DNA of 64,000 nucleotides. Origin: Bradyrhizobium sediminis (GTDB lineage: Bacteria > Pseudomonadota > Alphaproteobacteria > Rhizobiales > Xanthobacteraceae). Every line of letters starts with the position of its first letter. Position 1 is the first letter of the stretch. The notes below the pieces were generated by a model. The model had not been told where the DNA came from and ran no database searches. It saw nothing but the letters and a program-made list of their open reading frames with translations. A program made the position numbers and the translations under genes. Where the stretch lies: contig NZ_CP076135.1 in the NCBI RefSeq assembly GCF_018736105.1, forward strand, positions 4,710,001-4,774,000, written 5' to 3'. Of the stretch, positions 3,462 through 50,209 are shown in pieces.

Positions 3462-4121
3462 ATGACAAGCGGAGGGCCGCAGGATATAGCCCGCCCGAAG
3501 CGGCGTCCGCCGAAGGCAGGGCATCCGCTGGATTCCGCCTTCGACTTCGTCAACGGCGCGGTCGGCTATCGATTTCGCACGGGCGCCTCGCGCAAGGACG
3601 CGCTGGCGCGGGCCGCAGGCTTCGGCAAAGGCGCCGTGCCGACCATCATCGACGCCACCGCGGGGCTCGGCCGCGACGCCTTTCTGCTCGCCACCCTGGG
3701 CGCGCAAGTCACCCTGCTGGAGCGCTCGCCGGAAGTCCACGACCTCCTGCGCGAGGCGCTGGCGCGGGCGGCCGCCGAGAGCCCCGAACTCGCCGCGGTG
3801 GTGGCGCGGATGACGCTGATGCAGGGCGATGCCCGCGAGCTGTTGCCGGGCCTGCGGGCGGATACCGTGATCGTCGACCCCATGCATCCGCCGCGCACCA
3901 ATTCGGCTGTCGTGAAACAGGAGATGCGGCTGCTGCGCGAAATGGTCGGCGCCGACCCCGACGCGCTGGAACTGATGCAGGCGGCGCTGGCCGCCGACTG
4001 CCGGCGCGTGGTGCTGAAATGGCCGCAGCGCGCAGCGCCGCTGCAGGGCCTGCGCAAGCCGTCGCATTCGATCGCCGGCAAGACGGTGCGCTACGACGTG
4101 TTCATGATGACGGGGCGCTGA
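3462..4121 (+). CDS. rsmJ: RsmJ: 16S rRNA (guanine1516-N2)-methyltransferase
   Basis: A 219-residue SAM-dependent methyltransferase. The signature TIIDATAGLGRDAF (residues 61-74, SAM-binding loop) and VDPMHPPR (138-145, catalytic loop) are diagnostic of RsmJ/YhiQ, as is SAVVKQEM just after. RsmJ methylates N2 of G1516 in 16S rRNA of the 30S subunit. The N-terminal extension found in enteric RsmJ is reduced here to about 20 basic residues. A repeat follows it and the next gene is convergent, so it is probably monocistronic. Confidence 0.9.
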   Translation: MTSGGPQDIARPKRRPPKAGHPLDSAFDFVNGAVGYRFRTGASRKDALARAAGFGKGAVPTIIDATAGLGRDAFLLATLGAQVTLLERSPEVHDLLREALARAAAESPELAAVVARMTLMQGDARELLPGLRADTVIVDPMHPPRTNSAVVKQEMRLLREMVGADPDALELMQAALAADCRRVVLKWPQRAAPLQGLRKPSHSIAGKTVRYDVFMMTGR

Positions 4122-4298: not shown

Positions 4299-4778
4299 TC
4301 AACCCTTGTCTTTGCCGTCGAGCGCCTTCTCGTAATAGATCTGGGTCGGCAGGAAACCGACGCGCGCCAGCACCGATTTCATGCGCTCGTTGTCGGCGCG
4401 GGTGCGGAACACCACCTTGTCCAGTCCCTGTTTGCGGCAATGGTCGAACACCGCGTTGACCAGCGCCGACACCACGCCGCCGCCGCGCTGCGAGGGCGCG
4501 ACATAGATGCTGTGGAAGTCGGCGTATTTTTCCTTGGTGATGAAGTTCTGCCGCTGGCTGACATTGGCCCAGCCGACCAGTTCGCCCCCGCTCTCGGCGA
4601 CGAAGGCGGCGGCGTCCTTGTTGGCCAGCAGCTGCCTGAGCTTCTTGACGTAGAAGCGGGTGTCGGTGATCGGATCGTCGGGAAACGAGATCTTGGCGAT
4701 CTCGCCCTCGAACACGGCCACCGTTTCGAGATCCTTTTCCTCGAGCGGACGCAGGCGGAAGTTTGGTTTCTCAGACAT
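4299..4778 (-). CDS. GNAT-family N-acetyltransferase
   Basis: A 159-residue GNAT protein. Visible elements are an N-terminal strand (FRLRPLEEKDLETV), a central strand with GELVGWANVS, the acetyl-CoA pyrophosphate loop APSQRGGGVVSAL (about residues 94-106) and the late TRADNERMKSVLARVGF helix-strand. The substrate cannot be read from sequence. Its ATG lies upstream of the BpsA-like gene's stop with about 70 bases between them on the same strand, so the two could be co-transcribed; a polyamine acetyltransferase is conceivable but unsupported. Confidence 0.85.
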   Translation of the reverse strand: MSEKPNFRLRPLEEKDLETVAVFEGEIAKISFPDDPITDTRFYVKKLRQLLANKDAAAFVAESGGELVGWANVSQRQNFITKEKYADFHSIYVAPSQRGGGVVSALVNAVFDHCRKQGLDKVVFRTRADNERMKSVLARVGFLPTQIYYEKALDGKDKG

Positions 4779-4848: not shown

Positions 4849-6027
4849 TCATGACGGCCGGCCCGACTGCCGGCGGAACACGTGCCCGCCGCAAGCGCTG
4901 CATCCCCTCGCCTTCGCTTCATCGATGGTGGCGGGTATGCCGTCCTGGCCGAGCACGATCTCCTTGCCGCAGCCGGCGCAGGCATAGACGCGCTGGCGCG
5001 GATTGACCTCGGCGGTATATAGCGCGCCGCTGAAGTCCGGCAACTCGGCCGCCGCCTTGCCGGCGTGCACGAGTTCGATCAGCTGGCCGAGATTGCCGAG
5101 TACGGAAGCGCCGGCATAGCGGTTGAAGTTCGGCCATACCGCCCGCACCGCCAGCCCGAGCTCGACGAACACTTTCTGCAGGTCCAGCGTCTGCGACGGC
5201 GGCCAGTGCGCGAACGAGAAGAAGCAATGGCCGTCGGCCGCCGCGGTCAGCGCCTCGCAGCCGCGGGCCAGAAACAGCCGCGCGCCTTCCAGCGTATAGG
5301 GCGGGTCGGTCTCGATCGTGTCGAATGAATGCCGCAAGGCGGGCGGCAACGGCCGGCGCAGATCGTGATGCACGGTCTCGATCGCCAGCCCTTCGCGCGC
5401 GGCGGCATCGCGCAGAAACGCCAGCCGCCGCTCGTCGGCGTCGATCACGGTGACGCCGCGGGTCAGATCGGCTTTGGTCAGGTCGTTTTGGCGCAGCGCG
5501 CGGCCAACGAGGCCGATCGCGATCGAAACCGAATCGTCGTCGCCGAGCAGCAGCACGCGTTTGCCTTCGAGCGCGCCGTTCTGCAGCATCAGCAACGCGC
5601 GGCGCATGGAAGTGTCGGGGCTGCAGGGCGCCTGGTCCAGCGTCACGTCGACCGACGGCGCATGCGTGATGATTTCCGCCAGCCGCGCGACCTCGTCCTG
5701 CAGCGAATCCGGAATGACGATGCCATGCCCGGCGCAGGTGGCGCAGGTGACGTCGATCCGCGTACTCATGCCGAGATCGCGCTCCACCAGTTCGCGTCCG
5801 TCGCCGGTCAGCGTCAGCCCGTGCTTGCGTTCGAGCAGCCCGGCCTTTTCCAGCTCGCGGCGCACGGCGGTGGCGACCGGCAGCGGCAGCCGCGCCTCGC
5901 GCGCCGCATCCTGCAGGCGCAGCGGGCCGCCGCGGTAGACCGCGCGCAGCATTGCCGAGACGCCGGACGGTCCCTCACGCAGGCGCGTCGCCTGCGCTAT
6001 CAGGTCCAGAATCGATGTCGCGGCCAT
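4849..6027 (-). CDS. BpsA-like aminopropyltransferase (N4-bis(aminopropyl)spermidine synthase family)
   Basis: A 392-residue protein with a winged-helix-like N-terminus (about 20-85), a CATCAGHG zinc-knuckle-like motif (95-102), and a Rossmann catalytic core carrying GDDDSVSIA (162-170) and ETDPPYT (239-245). A C-terminal CxxC...CxxC ribbon uses Cys350, 353, 376 and 379. GDDD and DPPYT typify BpsA, which in thermophilic archaea adds two aminopropyl groups from decarboxylated AdoMet to the internal nitrogen of spermidine. The divergent neighbour encodes an AdoMet decarboxylase homologue, exactly the enzyme that would supply the donor. I chose the ATG at 6027; a TTG seven codons upstream is possible. 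The acceptor amine in a mesophile that makes homospermidine is unknown. Confidence 0.8.
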   Translation of the reverse strand: MAATSILDLIAQATRLREGPSGVSAMLRAVYRGGPLRLQDAAREARLPLPVATAVRRELEKAGLLERKHGLTLTGDGRELVERDLGMSTRIDVTCATCAGHGIVIPDSLQDEVARLAEIITHAPSVDVTLDQAPCSPDTSMRRALLMLQNGALEGKRVLLLGDDDSVSIAIGLVGRALRQNDLTKADLTRGVTVIDADERRLAFLRDAAAREGLAIETVHHDLRRPLPPALRHSFDTIETDPPYTLEGARLFLARGCEALTAAADGHCFFSFAHWPPSQTLDLQKVFVELGLAVRAVWPNFNRYAGASVLGNLGQLIELVHAGKAAAELPDFSGALYTAEVNPRQRVYACAGCGKEIVLGQDGIPATIDEAKARGCSACGGHVFRRQSGRPS

Positions 6028-6129
6028 TGCTCTTGATCTCGCTGTCAATTCGGCTAACTAGCACACACCCGTATCAAATGCGAGTTGGGCCAGGCATTCG
6101 GATCCGGTCCGGACCGAAGGAGTCTCTCG

Positions 6130-6480
6130 ATGCTGATGACCCATATTCTCGCAGAATTGTACGACTGCCCCGACGTCATCCATGACGCGGAAGCGCTCGC
6201 CGAGGCCGCCAAAACGGCGGCGCAGTCGGTCGGCGCGACCATCGTCGGCGAGTATGAAGTGCGCTACGTCCCGCACGGCCTCACCATCGCGATCTTTCTC
6301 GGCGAGTCGCACATCGTGCTGACGACGTGGCCGGAGTATCGCCTGCTGCTGGTCGATATCCTCCTGTGCAATCCGGAGATGGATCCGCAAGCGGTGGTGG
6401 AGCAGATCCAGCGGCAGATCTGCCCGGGTGGCCAGATGGTCGTTCACGAGACGCCGCGCCGGATCGCCGCCCGTCCCTGA
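6130..6480 (+). CDS. S-adenosylmethionine decarboxylase-like protein (SpeH family), catalytically atypical
   Basis: A 116-residue class 1B AdoMet decarboxylase homologue. GESHIVLTTWPEY aligns with the GES/SES-H...HTWPEY signature, keeping the Glu59-Ser60 self-cleavage site that normally yields the pyruvoyl cofactor, and Cys80 in LLCN matches catalytic Cys83 of the Thermotoga enzyme. Two other essential positions differ: the histidine of HTWPEY (His68) is Thr65, and Ser55 is Thr52. Function as a classical pyruvoyl enzyme is therefore doubtful. AAGGAG seven bases before the ATG sets the start. It diverges from the BpsA-like gene across about 100 bases, suggesting a joint role in an aminopropylation pathway. 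Confidence 0.82.
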   Translation: MLMTHILAELYDCPDVIHDAEALAEAAKTAAQSVGATIVGEYEVRYVPHGLTIAIFLGESHIVLTTWPEYRLLLVDILLCNPEMDPQAVVEQIQRQICPGGQMVVHETPRRIAARP

Positions 6481-6569: not shown

Positions 6570-7007
6570 ATGCCTGCGCCCGTGGTCACCAGCAATGCGA
6601 GGTGGGAACACTTTCCACATGATGCTGACGTCGGCGTAAGGGGATTTGGCGCAACGCCGGCAGAGGCGTTCGAACAGGCGGCGCAGGCGCTGACGGCGGT
6701 CGTCACGCATGCCGAAGTGAGGCCGGCGGTTCGGGTCGAGGTGAGTTGTGAAGGCCCGGACCTCGCGATTCTCTTCGTCGAGTGGCTCAATGCCATCATT
6801 TACGAGATGGCTGTGCGCGGCATGTTGTTTGGCCGTTTCGCCGTACGGATCGAGGGCGTGCGGCTCCATGGCGTCTTGTGGGGCGAGCCGGTCGATATCG
6901 AGCGGCATGCACCCGCTTGCGAGCCCAAAGGCGCTACCTACACCGCGCTCAGGGTCGCCGCCGACGACAACGGAATCTGGACGGCGGCCTGTATCGTGGA
7001 CGTGTAA
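6570..7007 (+). CDS. Archease, RtcB activator
   Basis: A 145-residue archease: WEHFPHDADVGVRGFG at the N-terminus, the central LFVEWLNAIIYEM helix, and the WGEPVDIERHAP...KGATYTAL segment are the family's hallmarks, with Asp18 and the C-terminal acidic residues as the probable metal and GTP site. Archease speeds guanylylation and multiple turnover of the RNA ligase RtcB. The RtcB gene begins 12 bases after its stop. A FixK-type box upstream suggests that the operon is induced when oxygen falls. Archease together with RtcB is uncommon in alphaproteobacteria, so acquisition or selective retention is possible. Confidence 0.9.
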   Translation: MPAPVVTSNARWEHFPHDADVGVRGFGATPAEAFEQAAQALTAVVTHAEVRPAVRVEVSCEGPDLAILFVEWLNAIIYEMAVRGMLFGRFAVRIEGVRLHGVLWGEPVDIERHAPACEPKGATYTALRVAADDNGIWTAACIVDV

Positions 7008-7019
7008 GGGAGACCGGTC

Positions 7020-8450
7020 ATGGATCCTGCCCGCTTCACCCGCGTCGATGCCACCACCTGGCGTATCGAGCCTTTTGGCGCCATGCGCGTTCCCGCCATC
7101 ATCTACGCCGATGAAGACCTCATTCGCGCCATGGACGACAAGGTCTTTGAACAGGTGACCAACGTCGCGATGCTGCCCGGAATCGTCCGGGCCTCCTATG
7201 CCATGCCCGACGCCCACTGGGGTTACGGATTTCCGATCGGCGGCGTTGCGGCCTTCGATCCGGACAGGTCGGGCATCGTCTCGGCCGGCGGCGTCGGCTT
7301 CGATGTCTCCTGTGGCGTCCGCACCATGCTGACGGGGCTTGACGTCGCCGACATCCTGCCGGTGCAGAAATCGCTCGCCGACTCGCTGTATCGCCAGATC
7401 CCCGCCGGCGTCGGAAGCACAGGCGCGATCGTTCTCGATCCCGTCGAGATGGATGCCATGCTCACGGGCGGCGCCTGCTGGGCGACCGAGCACGGCTGGG
7501 GCGATGCGCGGGACCTCGAACGCATCGAGGAACAGGGCTGGATGGCCGGCGCCAGGCCCGAATGCGTGTCCGACCGCGCCAAGGAACGGCAGCGGCTAGA
7601 GATGGGAACGCTCGGCTCCGGAAATCACTATCTCGAGGTCCAGGCGGTCGCCGAAATCTTCGATACCGGGGTCGCCGAGGCCTTCGGCCTGCGGCAGGAC
7701 AATGTCGTCGTCACCATCCATTGCGGCTCACGCGGACTTGGCCACCAGATCGGAACCGAATTCCTCAAGGAAATGGTGGTGGCGGCGGAGGCATCGGGCA
7801 TCGCGCTGCCCGATCGCGAGCTGGCCTGCGCACCCATCCATTCGGAGATCGGCCAGCGCTACCTCGGCGCGATGCGGGCGGCGATCAACTGCGCGCTCGC
7901 GAACCGTGAAATCCTCGGTCATTACGCACGCCGGATTTTCGGCCACTTCTTCCCGGATCACGACCTCCGCCTGCTGTTCGATGTGTCGCACAACACCTGC
8001 AAGGTCGAGCCGCACGTCGTCGACGGAAAACGCCGAAACCTGTTCGTCCATCGCAAGGGCGCGACCCGCGCCTTCGGGCCCGGCCATGAAAGTCTGCCCC
8101 AAGCGTTACGCGCAGTCGGACAACCTGTGCTGATCGGCGGCAGCATGGGGACCGGCTCGCATATCCTGGTCGGCGCAACGACCGGTGAAGAGAAGGCGTT
8201 CTCGTCGGCCTGCCACGGCGCCGGCCGCGCTCTTTCCCGCCACGCCGCCCTCAAACAATGGAGCGGCCGCAAGGTCATCGACGATCTTGCAGCGCGAGGC
8301 ATCCTGATCAGGAGTCCGTCGTCCCGCGGCGTAGCCGAGGAGGCGCCCGGCGCCTACAAGGACGTGGACGCGGTCGTGATGGCCGCCGAGCATGCGGGCC
8401 TGGCGCGGCGGGTGGCGCGGCTCCGGCCGCTGATCTGCATCAAGGGTTGA
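7020..8450 (+). CDS. rtcB: RtcB RNA ligase (3'-phosphate/5'-OH, GTP-dependent)
   Basis: A 476-residue RtcB with the full active site: Cys98 in GFDVSCGVR for manganese, metal-binding histidines in GSGNHYLEV, TIHCGSRGLGHQ and FDVSHNTCK, and the guanylylated histidine at about residue 399 in SACHGAGRA. It joins RNA 2',3'-cyclic-phosphate or 3'-phosphate ends to 5'-OH ends using GTP, and so repairs tRNA or rRNA cut by ribotoxins or oxidative damage. It follows archease by 12 bases and precedes alanine dehydrogenase by 19, so all three probably share the FixK-boxed promoter. The nearby ThpR-type 2',3'-cyclic phosphodiesterase acts on the same kind of RNA end. Confidence 0.95.
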   Translation: MDPARFTRVDATTWRIEPFGAMRVPAIIYADEDLIRAMDDKVFEQVTNVAMLPGIVRASYAMPDAHWGYGFPIGGVAAFDPDRSGIVSAGGVGFDVSCGVRTMLTGLDVADILPVQKSLADSLYRQIPAGVGSTGAIVLDPVEMDAMLTGGACWATEHGWGDARDLERIEEQGWMAGARPECVSDRAKERQRLEMGTLGSGNHYLEVQAVAEIFDTGVAEAFGLRQDNVVVTIHCGSRGLGHQIGTEFLKEMVVAAEASGIALPDRELACAPIHSEIGQRYLGAMRAAINCALANREILGHYARRIFGHFFPDHDLRLLFDVSHNTCKVEPHVVDGKRRNLFVHRKGATRAFGPGHESLPQALRAVGQPVLIGGSMGTGSHILVGATTGEEKAFSSACHGAGRALSRHAALKQWSGRKVIDDLAARGILIRSPSSRGVAEEAPGAYKDVDAVVMAAEHAGLARRVARLRPLICIKG

Positions 8451-45896: not shown

Positions 45897-46175
45897 CGTG
45901 TGTCAGTCGGTAGGTATCCGGACAAGAGGCCGGACAGCCGCCAAGGGGATGAAGAACCGAGGGTCGCTCTTGTTCGAGCGGCCAGCATCTCTCTCAAGAG
46001 ATGCCGTTGAAGGTCTCTTCGCTCCTTGCAACCGTGACTGGCAGCCGGAGGCGAACCGGCGCACCTCGTTCTCAACGGGGGACGCGACTTAAAGCAACGA
46101 CGGATCGGGCTTTTTTGGTCTCTGCCGGCTTTCCACCAGCCGGCGCGAATACCGAAGAGGCTTGTCCTTCATTGC
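45897..46175 (+). ncRNA. speF-type 5' leader RNA of ornithine decarboxylase
   Basis: The roughly 650-base gap before the decarboxylase gene is dense in stems: ggtatccgg with ccggacagcc, GCATCTCT-ctca-AGAGATGC (45987-46006), cagccgg-aggcgaa-ccggcg and GCCGGCT-ttccacc-AGCCGGC (46125-46145), with a T-run near 46110. Position and layout fit the speF motif found ahead of alphaproteobacterial ornithine decarboxylase genes, probably a polyamine- or translation-responsive leader. Boundaries are approximate. The stretch 45680-45896 before it holds only the presumed promoter. Confidence 0.68.
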
Positions 46176-46335
46176 CAGGTGTGCGGGCGGGATCCTTCCC
46201 AACCAATCCACGGCAGCACAGTTCGGTTTGAGTCTTTTGGCTTCGTTGCGCCTCCATCGCGCGATGTGGCCGGAGCGCTCTTATCCGAGATCATTTTTGA
46301 ACGTGTCCCGTCGCTGGGCCGTTTGGGAGGGTGCT

Positions 46336-47478
46336 ATGACCGAACGTATTCAGGAATTCCTGCGCAACCGCCGCAACGAGGGCCAGGACGTCGAGCCGTG
46401 CCTCGTCGTCGACCTCGAAGTGGTGCGCGACAACTACCAGAGCTTCGCCAGGGCGCTGCCGGACAGCCGCGTGTTCTATGCGGTCAAGGCCAACCCGGCG
46501 CCGGAAGTGCTGTCGCTCTTGGCCTCGATGGGCTCGTGCTTCGACTGCGCGTCGGTCGCCGAGATCCAGATGGCGCTCGCCGCCGGCGCGAGCCCGGAGC
46601 GCGTCTCCTATGGCAACACGATCAAGAAGGAACGCGACATCGCCCGCGCCTTCGCGCTCGGCATTCGCCTGTTCTCGGTCGACTGCTCCGCGGAAGTCGA
46701 GAAGATCGCCCGCGCCGCCCCCGGCTCCAAGGTGTTCTGCCGCATTCTCTATGACTGCGCCGGCGCCGAGTGGCCGCTGTCGCGCAAGTTCGGCTGCGAT
46801 CCGGAAATGGCGGTCGACGTGCTCGACCTCGCCAAGCGCCTTGGCCTGGAAGCTTACGGCATCTCGTTCCATGTCGGTTCGCAGCAGCGCAAGGTGAAGG
46901 CGTGGGACCGCGCGCTGGCGATGGCCTCGACGGTGTTCCGCGACTGCGCGGAGCGCGGCATCAACCTGTCCATGGTCAACATGGGCGGCGGATTTCCGAC
47001 CAAGTACCTCAAGGACGTGCCGCCGGTGGTGCAGTACGGCCGGTCGATCTTCCGCGCGCTGCGCAAGCACTTCGGCAACCAGATCCCGGAGACCATCATC
47101 GAGCCGGGCCGCGGTATGGTCGGCAACGCCGGCATCATCGAGACCGAAGTCGTTCTGATCTCCAAGAAGAGCGACGAGGACGAGGTGCGCTGGGTGTATC
47201 TCGACATCGGCAAGTTCGGCGGTCTCGCCGAGACGATGGACGAGTCGATCCGCTACGCCATCCGCACGCCGCATGACGGCGCGGAGATGACGCCGTGCGT
47301 GCTCGCTGGGCCCACCTGCGACAGCGCCGACGTGCTGTACGAGAAGATGCCGTACCCGCTCCCGGTGACGCTCGAGATCGGCGACAAGCTTTTGATCGAA
47401 GGCACCGGCGCCTATACGTCGACCTACTCGTCGGTGGCGTTCAACGGCTTCCCGCCGCTGCGGACCTACCACATCTGA
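46336..47478 (+). CDS. Ornithine decarboxylase (fold III, PLP-dependent)
   Basis: A 380-residue eukaryotic-type ornithine/lysine decarboxylase. RVFYAVKANP carries the PLP lysine (Lys51), NMGGGFP and EPGRGMVGNAG bind the phosphate, and GPTCDSADVLYE provides the catalytic Cys (about 328) from the other subunit. It makes putrescine (possibly cadaverine) in the cytoplasm. GGGAGG five bases before the ATG sets the start, although the frame stays open for 58 codons upstream. The product feeds homospermidine synthase encoded 1.3 kb downstream. Confidence 0.93.
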   Translation: MTERIQEFLRNRRNEGQDVEPCLVVDLEVVRDNYQSFARALPDSRVFYAVKANPAPEVLSLLASMGSCFDCASVAEIQMALAAGASPERVSYGNTIKKERDIARAFALGIRLFSVDCSAEVEKIARAAPGSKVFCRILYDCAGAEWPLSRKFGCDPEMAVDVLDLAKRLGLEAYGISFHVGSQQRKVKAWDRALAMASTVFRDCAERGINLSMVNMGGGFPTKYLKDVPPVVQYGRSIFRALRKHFGNQIPETIIEPGRGMVGNAGIIETEVVLISKKSDEDEVRWVYLDIGKFGGLAETMDESIRYAIRTPHDGAEMTPCVLAGPTCDSADVLYEKMPYPLPVTLEIGDKLLIEGTGAYTSTYSSVAFNGFPPLRTYHI

Positions 47479-47677: not shown

Positions 47678-48274
47678 ATGACTGCTTTGCGGAAGACCCC
47701 CGTTGCCCTGATCTCCGACGCCGCGCCGTTCGCGATCCGCGGCGAGCGCGCCCCGGACGTCGCTGCGCGCGAAGCGCTGCTCGATGCCTGCTTTGGCGCC
47801 AACCGCCATGCCCGCACCTGCCAGCGCCTGCGTGACGGCCACGCGCCCGCCGAAGGCCTTGCCTTCTCGGCCGTGGCGAACGGCCAACTGGTCGGAACCG
47901 TGCGGTTGTGGCACGTCACCGCCGGAGGCAAGCCAGCGCTGGTGCTCGGCCCGCTGGCGGTCGATAACGCGTGCCGCGAACTCGGCATCGGCGCGGCATT
48001 AATGAACCACGCGCTGGCGGCGGCGAAAGCGCGCGGCCATGGCGCGGTGATCCTGCTCGGCGACGCGCCCTATTATGCCCGCTTCGGCTTCTCGGCCATC
48101 AAGACCGGCGAGCTGGCGCTGCCCGGCCCGTTCGAGCGCGACCGGCTGCTCGGCCTCGAACTGCGCGACGGCGCGCTCGACGGCGCCTGCGGCATGATCG
48201 TGCCGTCAGGCCCGGCGGCGCCGAAAGGCAAGGTGGCGGGAAGAGCCCGTAAATTGGCCTCTCACGCCGCTTGA
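47678..48274 (+). CDS. GNAT-family N-acetyltransferase (YhbS-like)
   Basis: A 198-residue acetyltransferase. The GNAT core spans about 40-150: NGQLVGTVRLWHV strand, LGPLAVDNACRELGIGAALMNHAL acetyl-CoA loop, and ILLGDAPYYARFGFSA. The YYARFGF motif is typical of the YhbS-type subgroup. The C-terminal 40 residues are basic and may be flexible. It sits between the ornithine decarboxylase and homospermidine synthase genes, so polyamine or tRNA-related acetylation is conceivable, but the substrate is unknown. Confidence 0.85.
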   Translation: MTALRKTPVALISDAAPFAIRGERAPDVAAREALLDACFGANRHARTCQRLRDGHAPAEGLAFSAVANGQLVGTVRLWHVTAGGKPALVLGPLAVDNACRELGIGAALMNHALAAAKARGHGAVILLGDAPYYARFGFSAIKTGELALPGPFERDRLLGLELRDGALDGACGMIVPSGPAAPKGKVAGRARKLASHAA

Positions 48275-48345
48275 TTTGAGGGTCAAGACGCGGCATTGCG
48301 TGGCTTCAATTCCAGCCCCCCATGGTCCGCCCCGAGGTCGATACG

Positions 48346-48732
48346 ATGCCCCGCCGCCTGATTTCCACCGGCTCGCCGTTCGAGAAGACCGCCGGCTACA
48401 GCCGCGCCGTGATCGACGGCGATTTCGCCTTCGTCGCCGGCACTACCGGCTACGACTACGCCACCATGACGATGCCGCCGGATGTCACGAGCCAGTCACG
48501 CAACTGCTTCAGGACCATCGAAGCCGCCTTGAAAGAGGGCGGGTTCGCGATGGCCGACATCGTGCGGGCGACCTACTACATCACCGACCTCAAGGACGCG
48601 GACGCCCATTTCGCGGTCTGCGGCGAAGTTCTCGGCGACATCCGCCCGGCCGCGACGCTTCTGGTGGTCGTCGGGCTCTACAAGCCCGAGATGAAGGTCG
48701 AGATCGAAGTCACCGCCAAGCGGCGCACCTGA
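48346..48732 (+). CDS. RidA/YjgF-family deaminase
   Basis: A 128-residue RidA-like protein: SPFEKTAGYSRAVIDGDFAFVAGTTG opens the fold, VRATYYITDLKDADAHF and the late PAATLLVVVGL correspond to conserved RidA segments. The arginine of RidA active sites is not in its usual place, so true 2-aminoacrylate deaminase activity is uncertain. GAGG eight bases before ATG 48346 favours this start over ATG 48322. Its position between decarboxylase and homospermidine synthase suggests a reactive imine intermediate is being handled. Confidence 0.83.
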   Translation: MPRRLISTGSPFEKTAGYSRAVIDGDFAFVAGTTGYDYATMTMPPDVTSQSRNCFRTIEAALKEGGFAMADIVRATYYITDLKDADAHFAVCGEVLGDIRPAATLLVVVGLYKPEMKVEIEVTAKRRT

Positions 48733-48778: not shown

Positions 48779-50209
48779 ATGAGCCCGTCCGCGCCAATCC
48801 ACGCGAAAATTTCCGGCCCCATCGTCATGATCGGCTTCGGCTCGATCGGCAAAGGCACGCTGCCGCTGATCGAACGGCATTTCGACTATGACAACTCGCG
48901 CTTCGTCATCATCGACCCGCATGAGGACGGCGAGCTCGCGAAACAGCACGGCGTGCGCTTCATCAAGCAGGCCGTCACCCGCGACAACTACCGCGAGGTG
49001 CTGGTGCCGCTCTTGACCGCCGGCGGCGGCCAGGGCTTTTGCGTCAACCTGTCGGTGGACACCTCGTCGGTCGACATCATGACCATGTGCCGCGAGATCG
49101 GCGCGCTCTACATCGACACCGTGGTGGAGCCGTGGCTCGGCTTCTACTTCGACAAGAATATCGGCCCGGAAAAGCGCTCGAACTACGCGCTGCGCGAGAC
49201 CCTGCTGGCGGCCAAGCACAAGAGCCCGGGCGGGCCGACCGCGGTGTCCACCTGCGGCGCCAATCCCGGCATGGTGTCATGGTTCGTCAAGCAGGCGCTG
49301 CTCGACATCGCGCGCGACACCAATACGCCCCACAACGAGCCGAAGAGCCGGGAGGGCTGGGCCCAGCTCGCCCACAAGCTCGGCGTCAAGGGCATCCATA
49401 TCGCCGAGCGCGACACCCAGCGCTCCAAGAAACCGAAGCCGATGGACGTGTTCGTCAACACCTGGTCGGTGGAGGGCTTCGTGTCCGAGGGCATGCAGCC
49501 GGCCGAACTCGGCTGGGGCACCCACGAAGCGTGGATGCCGCACAATGCCGGCATCCACAATTACGGCTGCGGTGCGGCGATCTATCTGCTGCAGCCCGGC
49601 GCCAACACCCGCGTGCGCTCCTGGTGCCCGACGCCGGGCGCGCAATACGGCTTTCTCGTCACCCATAACGAATCGATCTCGATCGCGGATTACTTCACCG
49701 TTCGCGAGGGCAGCACCGTGATCTACCGCCCGACCTGCCATTACGCCTATCACCCCGCCAACGACGCGGTGCTGTCGCTGCACGAGATCTTCGGCGCCAC
49801 CGGCAAGATGCAGGAAAAATGGCACATCCTCGACGAGAACGAGATCGAGGACGGCATCGACGAACTCGGCGTGCTGCTCTACGGCCACGCCAAGAACGCC
49901 TATTGGTACGGCTCGCAGCTCTCGATCGAGGAGACCCGGAAGATCGCGCCGTACCAGAACGCTACCGGATTGCAGGTGTCCTCGGCAGTCTTGGCCGGCA
50001 TGGTGTGGGCGCTGGAAAATCCCGGCGCCGGGATCGTCGAGGCCGACGAGATGGATTTCCACCGCTGCCTCGAAATCCAGCGGCCCTATCTCGGACCGGT
50101 CAAGGGTTTCTACACCGACTGGACCCCGCTCTCGGACCGGCCCGGCCTGTTCCCGGAAGACATCGACACCAGCGATCCCTGGCAGTTCAGGAACGTGCTG
50201 GTGCGATAA
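48779..50209 (+). CDS. hss: Homospermidine synthase
   Basis: A 476-residue bacterial homospermidine synthase. The Rossmann motif VMIGFGSIGKGTLP (16-29) binds NAD+, and long conserved blocks follow: VEPWLGFYF, STCGANPGMVSWFVKQ and DVFVNTWSVEGF. It joins two putrescines (or putrescine and spermidine-derived aminobutyl) through Schiff-base chemistry to give sym-homospermidine, the main polyamine of many rhizobia. GGAG eight bases before the ATG sets the start. With the speF-led decarboxylase it forms a putrescine-to-homospermidine unit. Confidence 0.95.
   Translation: MSPSAPIHAKISGPIVMIGFGSIGKGTLPLIERHFDYDNSRFVIIDPHEDGELAKQHGVRFIKQAVTRDNYREVLVPLLTAGGGQGFCVNLSVDTSSVDIMTMCREIGALYIDTVVEPWLGFYFDKNIGPEKRSNYALRETLLAAKHKSPGGPTAVSTCGANPGMVSWFVKQALLDIARDTNTPHNEPKSREGWAQLAHKLGVKGIHIAERDTQRSKKPKPMDVFVNTWSVEGFVSEGMQPAELGWGTHEAWMPHNAGIHNYGCGAAIYLLQPGANTRVRSWCPTPGAQYGFLVTHNESISIADYFTVREGSTVIYRPTCHYAYHPANDAVLSLHEIFGATGKMQEKWHILDENEIEDGIDELGVLLYGHAKNAYWYGSQLSIEETRKIAPYQNATGLQVSSAVLAGMVWALENPGAGIVEADEMDFHRCLEIQRPYLGPVKGFYTDWTPLSDRPGLFPEDIDTSDPWQFRNVLVR

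Follow-up and report, generated by a model that had tools for sequence, protein, structure and literature searches.

A putative aminopropylation module, conserved and apparently mesophilic, that pairs a divergent BpsA with an AdoMet decarboxylase homologue lacking His68 in Bradyrhizobium sediminis and its relatives

Introduction

The closest described counterparts of the genes considered here are the class 1b S-adenosylmethionine (AdoMet) decarboxylases (SpeD), for instance Thermotoga maritima TM0655 (PDB 1tlu, 1tmi and 1vr7), whose partner is SpeE, and the aminopropyltransferase BpsA, the branched-chain polyamine synthase known from Thermococcus and Thermus (PDB 5xnc and 6j27). Relatives of both are encoded back to back in a stretch of 64,000 nucleotides of the Bradyrhizobium sediminis genome (assembly GCF_018736105.1, contig NZ_CP076135.1, positions 4,710,001 to 4,774,000; hereafter the window), namely a BpsA-like protein and a 116 aa AdoMet decarboxylase homologue, here called SpeDx, which has a threonine at the position of T. 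maritima His68.

Several other systems bear on this pair. In Thermococcus BpsA (Tk-BpsA), acidic C-terminal residues (E339 and D342-E345) carry the aminopropyl group, with a DEE motif in the Thermus enzyme (PMC12979288). Small SpeD-derived proteins that, like SpeDx, depart from canonical SpeD have been described as SpeDA and SpeDC, which act on arginine or ornithine, and that paper reasons that SpeD, SpeDA and SpeDC share the residues of processing, among them H68 (PMC10407285). An operon of PspA, CesT/Tir, DUF350 and DUF4178 proteins with a membrane spermidine-synthase-like protein has also been described (PMC11237479). Lastly, in the decarboxylase PanD, Thr57 is required for activation and has been proposed to act as both acid and base, and the GNAT protein PanZ is needed for that activation (PMC3975893, PMC3496974).

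Results

SpeDx is encoded on the forward strand (positions 6130..6480 of the window) and the BpsA-like protein on the reverse strand (4849..6027), with a divergent intergenic region of 102 bases between them (6028..6129); these open reading frames (ORFs), their divergent arrangement and the 116 aa length of SpeDx agree with the original prediction made from the sequence. SpeDx has a PF02675 domain (86.1 bits) with the AdoMet decarboxylase fold and scores 72 bits against the NCBIfam SpeD equivalog TIGR03330, under that family's cut-off of 75.65. The predicted self-cleavage site, Glu59-Ser60, and the catalytic cysteine (Cys80, T. maritima Cys83) are kept, and Thr65 and Thr52 stand at the positions of T. 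maritima His68 and Ser55, all as had first been read. Among 119 aligned relatives, picked by their likeness to the window SpeDx and counted as rows with a letter in the column concerned, the His68 column holds Thr in 114, Ser in four and Asp in one, so that Thr or Ser sets 118/119 apart from class 1b SpeD. Ser60 is Ser in 119/119, Glu59 is Glu and Cys80 is Cys in 117/119 each, and Tyr46 and Glu69 are Tyr and Glu in 118/119 each. The last two occupy the positions of Phe49 and Glu72 of T. maritima SpeD, which bind AdoMet in that enzyme. A second alignment (A2) consists of the first (A1) with the rows P0096, which is frame-shifted or hybrid, and P0032, which is near P0039, removed.

The original prediction had two catalytic residues missing from SpeDx, and only one of these changes proved to be unusual. 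We divided 97 distinct SpeD sequences, being those locus sequences that match a motif pattern from the cleavage Ser to W/F-P-E (non-matching loci uncounted), into His68 with Ser55 (41), His68 with Thr55 (23), Thr68 with Thr55 (26) and Ser68 with Thr55 (7); an earlier count by motif pattern took in 116 sequences from 133 loci. Thr at position 55 is ordinary, because 23/64 distinct His68-type sequences carry it, and a reading of the Ser55-to-Thr change as a catalytic loss is ruled out by the same figure; the S55A mutant of T. maritima SpeD is, moreover, published as still activated (PMC3975893). The clade-wide change of His68, in contrast, is a real oddity of SpeDx.

A further difference from class 1b SpeD lies at the position of T. 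maritima Tyr52 (SpeDx His49), where His is found in 32/33 distinct His68-less sequences and in 4/64 of the others, as counted by a fixed offset from the cleavage site that gaps in some rows could shift. The one His68-less sequence of the 33 that departs from this, L006 from genome G068, has Gln there, and genes for BpsA and for the GNAT-fold protein described below still adjoin it. We did not adopt His49 as a stand-in base, given that L006 is a full member of the group in this respect. A tree of 76 rows splits His-type from Thr/Ser-type sequences with support of 100/100, this being a midpoint-rooted tree of 119 columns only, in which the bootstrap had not fully settled, the trait column was included and no row was dropped. 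The rate of nonsynonymous substitution (dN) was lower than that of synonymous substitution (dS) for SpeDx, BpsA and the GNAT gene in 12/12 comparisons, indicating purifying selection and ruling out a pseudogene reading.

The BpsA-like protein is 392 aa long from an ATG at 6027. Its longest ORF begins at a TTG at 6048 (399 aa), and 6027 is the likely start, as in the database copy P0149; two sets of matches were listed, the best 120 of 308 and the best 120 of 408, and the latter includes P0149. The protein matches the PF01861 BpsA_C domain at 141 bits and Thermococcus BpsA (5xnc) with an expect value (E) of 4.3e-33. The GDDDSVSIA and DPPYT motifs named in the original prediction are present, but instead of two CxxC elements there are three CxxC pairs in the 399 aa ORF (C102, C357 and C383), of which the last two make up a C-terminal ribbon. 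In the alignment to 5xnc, Asp159, Asp160, Asp225 and Tyr290 of Tk-BpsA correspond to D171, D172, D248 and Y311 of the window protein; D171, D248 and Y311 are found in 33/33 BpsA relatives and D172 in 32/33. Departures from the Thermococcus and Thermus enzymes are found elsewhere. Glu259 of Tk-BpsA aligns with H281 in the window, and the column holds His in 17 of the 33 relatives, Gln in 12, Arg in three and Asp in one. At the C-terminus, where the acidic carrier cluster would stand, 32/33 relatives have a four-Cys ribbon (CxxC...CxxC); DEE is absent from the last 75 residues in 33/33, and acidic residues number at most three per seven in 32/33 (four in P0244). Judged from these residues, the donor side of BpsA looks intact, and the acceptor side and the transfer route look changed. 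The host of the window, to judge from the genera concerned, is also a mesophile.

The original prediction comprised two genes, and a third accompanies them. It encodes a GNAT-fold protein of 159 aa (PF00583, 64.2 bits) at 4299..4778 on the reverse strand, 70 bases downstream of the BpsA gene and on the same strand. A scan of named genomes returned 30 SpeDx loci, of which 26 are alphaproteobacterial (L032-L056 and L058; from Bradyrhizobium, a Bradyrhizobiaceae, Rhodopseudomonas, Xanthobacteraceae, Aureimonas, Aurantimonas, Mangrovicella and one Rhizobiaceae), one belongs to Magnetococcales, two are labelled Deltaproteobacteria and one is labelled Proteobacteria. With flanks of up to 7 kb, shorter at contig ends, a GNAT relative (39-90% identity) lies near SpeDx in 26/26 alphaproteobacterial loci, and BpsA lies inside the fetched stretch in 23/26. 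For L051 and L054 a genome search placed BpsA 7-8 kb from SpeDx, and L055 is a contig of 3.2 kb. The genes occur in the orders GNAT-BpsA-SpeDx, BpsA-SpeDx-GNAT and GNAT-SpeDx-...-BpsA, and linkage has therefore been kept despite rearrangement.

Genome searches were directed at 24/30 scan loci (all but L033-L035, L040, L055 and L061), less L048 and L050; the 27 genome handles searched represent 25 distinct genomes, chosen for SpeDx, since G003/G104 and G005/G106 share coordinates and are counted once. BpsA is present in 22 alphaproteobacterial genomes and absent from the three others, and in 22/22 distinct alphaproteobacterial SpeDx genomes searched SpeDx and BpsA share a contig and are separated by less than 8 kb, so the originally predicted pair is indeed a conserved one. 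SpeDx is the sole PF02675 protein of the window genome (G000) and of 25/27 handles in all; a second SpeD, of His type, occurs only in G003/G104, where it adjoins SpeE. We infer from this linkage that SpeDx, BpsA and the GNAT protein constitute a three-gene aminopropylation module.

The acetyl-CoA motif region of the GNAT protein reads R-G-G-G-V-V in the window and varies among relatives; the usual motif starts with Arg or Gln, and several Aurantimonadaceae rows do not have this leading residue. In Aurantimonadaceae (L043:7351-9317, L050:7364-9085 and related loci), SpeDx and BpsA are separated by two further genes, one of FkbH type and one for a small acyl carrier protein. This is a hint that a carrier protein could provide an acyl group for the amine product.

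The module is sparsely distributed. Among 100 genomes of the family (the window genome included), SpeDx, a strong BpsA and the GNAT protein are found in the same five (G000, G003, G005, G050 and G068), with SpeDx at 151-252 bits (E 3e-44 or better), BpsA at 141-153 bits and GNAT at E<=1e-25. Another genome of the family sample, G067, encodes a BpsA-like protein that is weak and of a different sort (L134), a divergent PF01861 protein of 72 bits that is about 27% identical in part to the window BpsA, with SpeDx and GNAT absent. Among 386 genomes of the class, G000 is the sole one with a convincing BpsA (141 bits); a second genome passes the cut-off with a match of 80 positions that scores 27.5 bits. 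SpeDx scores likewise single out G000, at 195.8 bits against 69.3 for the next genome. Across 397 genomes of the phylum, G000 and four others score at the SpeDx level (147-196 bits), and the next score down is 71. The four others carry Ser68, and His68 is found in all 23 of the new loci with lower scores (L139-L161).

Outside the Alphaproteobacteria the partner of SpeDx is a different one, which likewise goes beyond the original prediction. A membrane-fused spermidine-synthase-like gene and DUF4178 lie near SpeDx in 6/6 non-alphaproteobacterial loci long enough to be judged (L057, L059, L060, L162, L163 and L164), the membrane synthase domain being confirmed for L057 and L059 (PRK03612, 552 and 622 bits). 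Relatives of DUF350, PspA and CesT/Tir are found in L057 and L162-L164, and an amine oxidase in L059 and L060. In the Ser68 subgroup (L057:6995-12551, L162 and L163), SpeDx precedes the CesT/Tir, PspA, DUF4178, DUF350 and membrane spermidine-synthase-like genes, all in one direction; in L164 SpeDx is oriented the opposite way. Ser68 SpeDx thus extends the PspA-type envelope-stress operon to a His-less AdoMet decarboxylase, whereas the alphaproteobacterial neighbours are BpsA and GNAT. The partner of SpeDx is accordingly BpsA or a membrane synthase, where that of class 1b SpeD is SpeE.

The window also holds genes for a likely acceptor. A homospermidine synthase of 476 aa (48779..50209, forward strand) matches PDB 4plp at 855.5 bits by phmmer and PF16653 at 125.3 bits, with no NCBIfam match, and is the likely source of a triamine acceptor. 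A decarboxylase of the ornithine/lysine type dependent on pyridoxal phosphate (PLP), encoded at 46162..47478 on the forward strand, matches PF02784 at 191.9 bits; its best PDB matches are the lysine/ornithine decarboxylase 5gjm (214 bits) and ornithine decarboxylases, and it reaches the cut-off of none of the seven NCBIfam families that it matches, LysA being the best. Its ORF has an upstream TTG and the true start is probably later. We regard this enzyme as the likely putrescine source; the other PF02784 protein of G000 is LysA, at 487 bits. Between these two genes lie a second GNAT-like gene (47678-48274) and, before the homospermidine synthase, a gene at 48322-48732 that is presumably RidA-like, both within 47678-48732 on the forward strand.

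A confident spermidine synthase was not found in G000, where the sole PF01564 match is 224 aa long and scores 28.6 bits, over the Pfam cut-off of 22.9 and far under all NCBIfam cut-offs; this negative covers spermidine synthase and involved no direct search for the carboxyspermidine route. With a homospermidine synthase and an ornithine-decarboxylase-like enzyme, and with neither a confident spermidine synthase nor a second SpeD, the originally suggested acceptor other than spermidine is plausible. PF16653 and PF02784 were searched for over 11 handles, and a PF16653 protein was found in 8/9 alphaproteobacterial SpeDx genomes tested, homospermidine synthase being judged by PF16653 alone outside the window genome; the ninth, G003, has the His-type SpeD and SpeE. 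All nine thus seem able to make a triamine by one route or the other, which fits a triamine acceptor.

Two neighbouring features were rejected as members of the module. Archease and RtcB RNA ligase genes (6570-8450, forward strand) stand directly after SpeDx and, in this genome, may share its transcript; tblastn matches to them at E<=1e-6 were found in 0/26 alphaproteobacterial loci, within the stretches fetched. An RsmJ-like SAM_MT gene (3462-4121) recurs in L032-L042 and L045, but L046 and the stretches from Aurantimonadaceae lack it.

Discussion

On balance we lean, if only slightly, towards SpeDx being a working His-less AdoMet decarboxylase that serves a BpsA which aminopropylates a polyamine, most likely homospermidine. 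SpeDx would cleave itself between Glu59 and Ser60 to form a pyruvoyl group and would then decarboxylate AdoMet, with no need of His68; ester formation and elimination would have to depend on the Thr52 and Thr65 hydroxyls, with Glu59, Cys80 or the nearby His49. BpsA, which retains the GDDD and DPP motifs, would use decarboxylated AdoMet, adding one or more aminopropyl groups to the polyamine, perhaps at an internal nitrogen to give a branched amine. Transfer would probably be direct or by way of another carrier, since this BpsA has no acidic carrier cluster like the one at the C-terminus of the Thermococcus enzyme, and the choice of acceptor would differ too. The GNAT protein may then cap the product by N-acylation or aid the maturation of SpeDx. 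The strongest argument that SpeDx supplies an aminopropyl donor is that two different aminopropyltransferase families serve as its partners.

Several points weigh against this reading. H68 is essential for self-processing in T. maritima (PMC10407285), and His243 of human AdoMet decarboxylase is required for the second step, its mutant stalling at the ester (PMC3975893). Nevertheless, the human H243A mutant is described as activated at a decreased rate (PMC3975893), which together with the activation of S55A leaves some room for His-less activation. On the BpsA side, no relative of the 33 has Glu in the column of Glu259, which belongs to the Thermococcus acceptor site, and the acidic carrier cluster has no counterpart in any of the 33; because of both, the BpsA product may be unbranched or not a polyamine. 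An enzyme assay or polyamine profile of any module member was not found in the literature searched, and the open-licence papers listed, covered mainly as titles and abstract openings, included none on a His68-less AdoMet decarboxylase clade or on BpsA in Alphaproteobacteria. Homospermidine synthase is common in these bacteria, so that its presence says little about the acceptor; triamine routes too are common, and the assignment by PF16653 alone counts on the same side. We would also like to note that related genomes are not independent observations. In the membrane-synthase setting, a study by Li et al. (Biochem J, 2019), which PMC11237479 cites for a polyamine-independent role of AdoMet decarboxylase, reportedly found aminopropylation outside polyamine synthesis.

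The two points about BpsA also bear on an alternative, in which the module aminopropylates a lipid, a peptide or another metabolite instead of a polyamine, as has been proposed for AdoMet decarboxylases beside membrane spermidine-synthase fusions. Non-alphaproteobacterial SpeDx sits in membrane-synthase operons, with PspA, CesT/Tir, DUF350 and DUF4178 in 4/6 loci (the type described in PMC11237479); the window BpsA has neither Glu259 nor the acidic carriers; and the FkbH-type and acyl carrier protein genes of Aurantimonadaceae stand between SpeDx and BpsA. However, among 24 alphaproteobacterial handles a strong PF01564 match (>100 bits) is found only in G003/G104, where it is a canonical SpeE beside the His-type SpeD, and the known acceptors of the BpsA family are polyamines, with the equivalents of the acceptor-side residues Asp225 and Tyr290 kept in 33/33 relatives. 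We consider a non-polyamine acceptor unlikely.

It is also rather unlikely, in our estimate, that SpeDx stays uncleaved, as the original prediction allowed, and, being no decarboxylase, acts as a regulator or chaperone of BpsA that binds AdoMet or its decarboxylated form, in the manner of the dead prozyme of trypanosome AdoMet decarboxylase. Almost all members of the SpeDx clade have another residue in place of the histidine by which processing is completed, and dead AdoMet decarboxylase paralogues with regulatory roles are described from trypanosomatids (PMC3686867, PMC5201418). Yet Ser60, Glu59 and Cys80 are nearly fixed in SpeDx (119, 117 and 117 of 119), in contrast to the degenerate Victivallis domain, which has lost critical active-site residues (PMC10407285), and 25/27 handles hold no other PF02675 protein that could make the donor or be regulated by SpeDx.

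The threonines at the Ser55 and His68 positions, together with the co-occurring GNAT, also suggest maturation of the PanZ kind. PanD-PanZ likewise combines a pyruvoyl-type decarboxylase, a key Thr where AdoMet decarboxylase uses His, and a co-occurring GNAT (PMC3496974, PMC3975893). By analogy, the GNAT protein would dock on the SpeDx proenzyme and trigger pyruvoyl formation, perhaps gated by acyl-CoA or acyl-acyl carrier protein (acyl-ACP); His68 would have been lost since activation became conditional, and decarboxylated AdoMet would be made only on need and then passed to a BpsA that builds branched aminopropyl-homospermidine in mesophiles. We hold this to be improbable. The fold of PanD differs from that of AdoMet decarboxylase, the link between SpeDx and GNAT is here one of co-occurrence only, and GNAT may simply acylate the product. 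As a general rule it is further weakened by the non-alphaproteobacterial loci, since a GNAT profile at E<=10 found none in the stretches of L057, L059-L061 and L162-L164 and did recover the window and L043 genes. No description of such a licensed, GNAT-gated aminopropylation system was found in the open-licence literature covered. A shift of SpeDx to the decarboxylation of arginine or ornithine, finally, is very improbable: such shifts are widespread in the SpeD family, but SpeDx has no H68, keeps AdoMet-type positions and resembles neither SpeDA nor SpeDC, its partners are aminopropyltransferases, and the window genome has a PLP-dependent ornithine-type decarboxylase, whereas genomes with anomalous SpeD are without a canonical arginine or ornithine decarboxylase (PMC10407285).

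The observation behind the original prediction is thus confirmed, and its interpretation is partly supported. To the extent that function can be read from these proteins, the locus belongs to an aminopropylation module that is conserved and apparently mesophilic, in which BpsA is divergent and the AdoMet decarboxylase is of a clade lacking His68. Polyamine-branching chemistry has been described mainly from heat-loving microbes, and the putative module is found here in soil and marine relatives of rhizobia. A mesophilic alphaproteobacterial BpsA module, mostly in homospermidine rather than spermidine genomes, would widen the range of BpsA chemistry and would make it accessible in a tractable bacterium, Rhodopseudomonas. 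AdoMet decarboxylases that, as a clade, do without the histidine of processing would, if true, be a natural test of which residues are needed for pyruvoyl formation.

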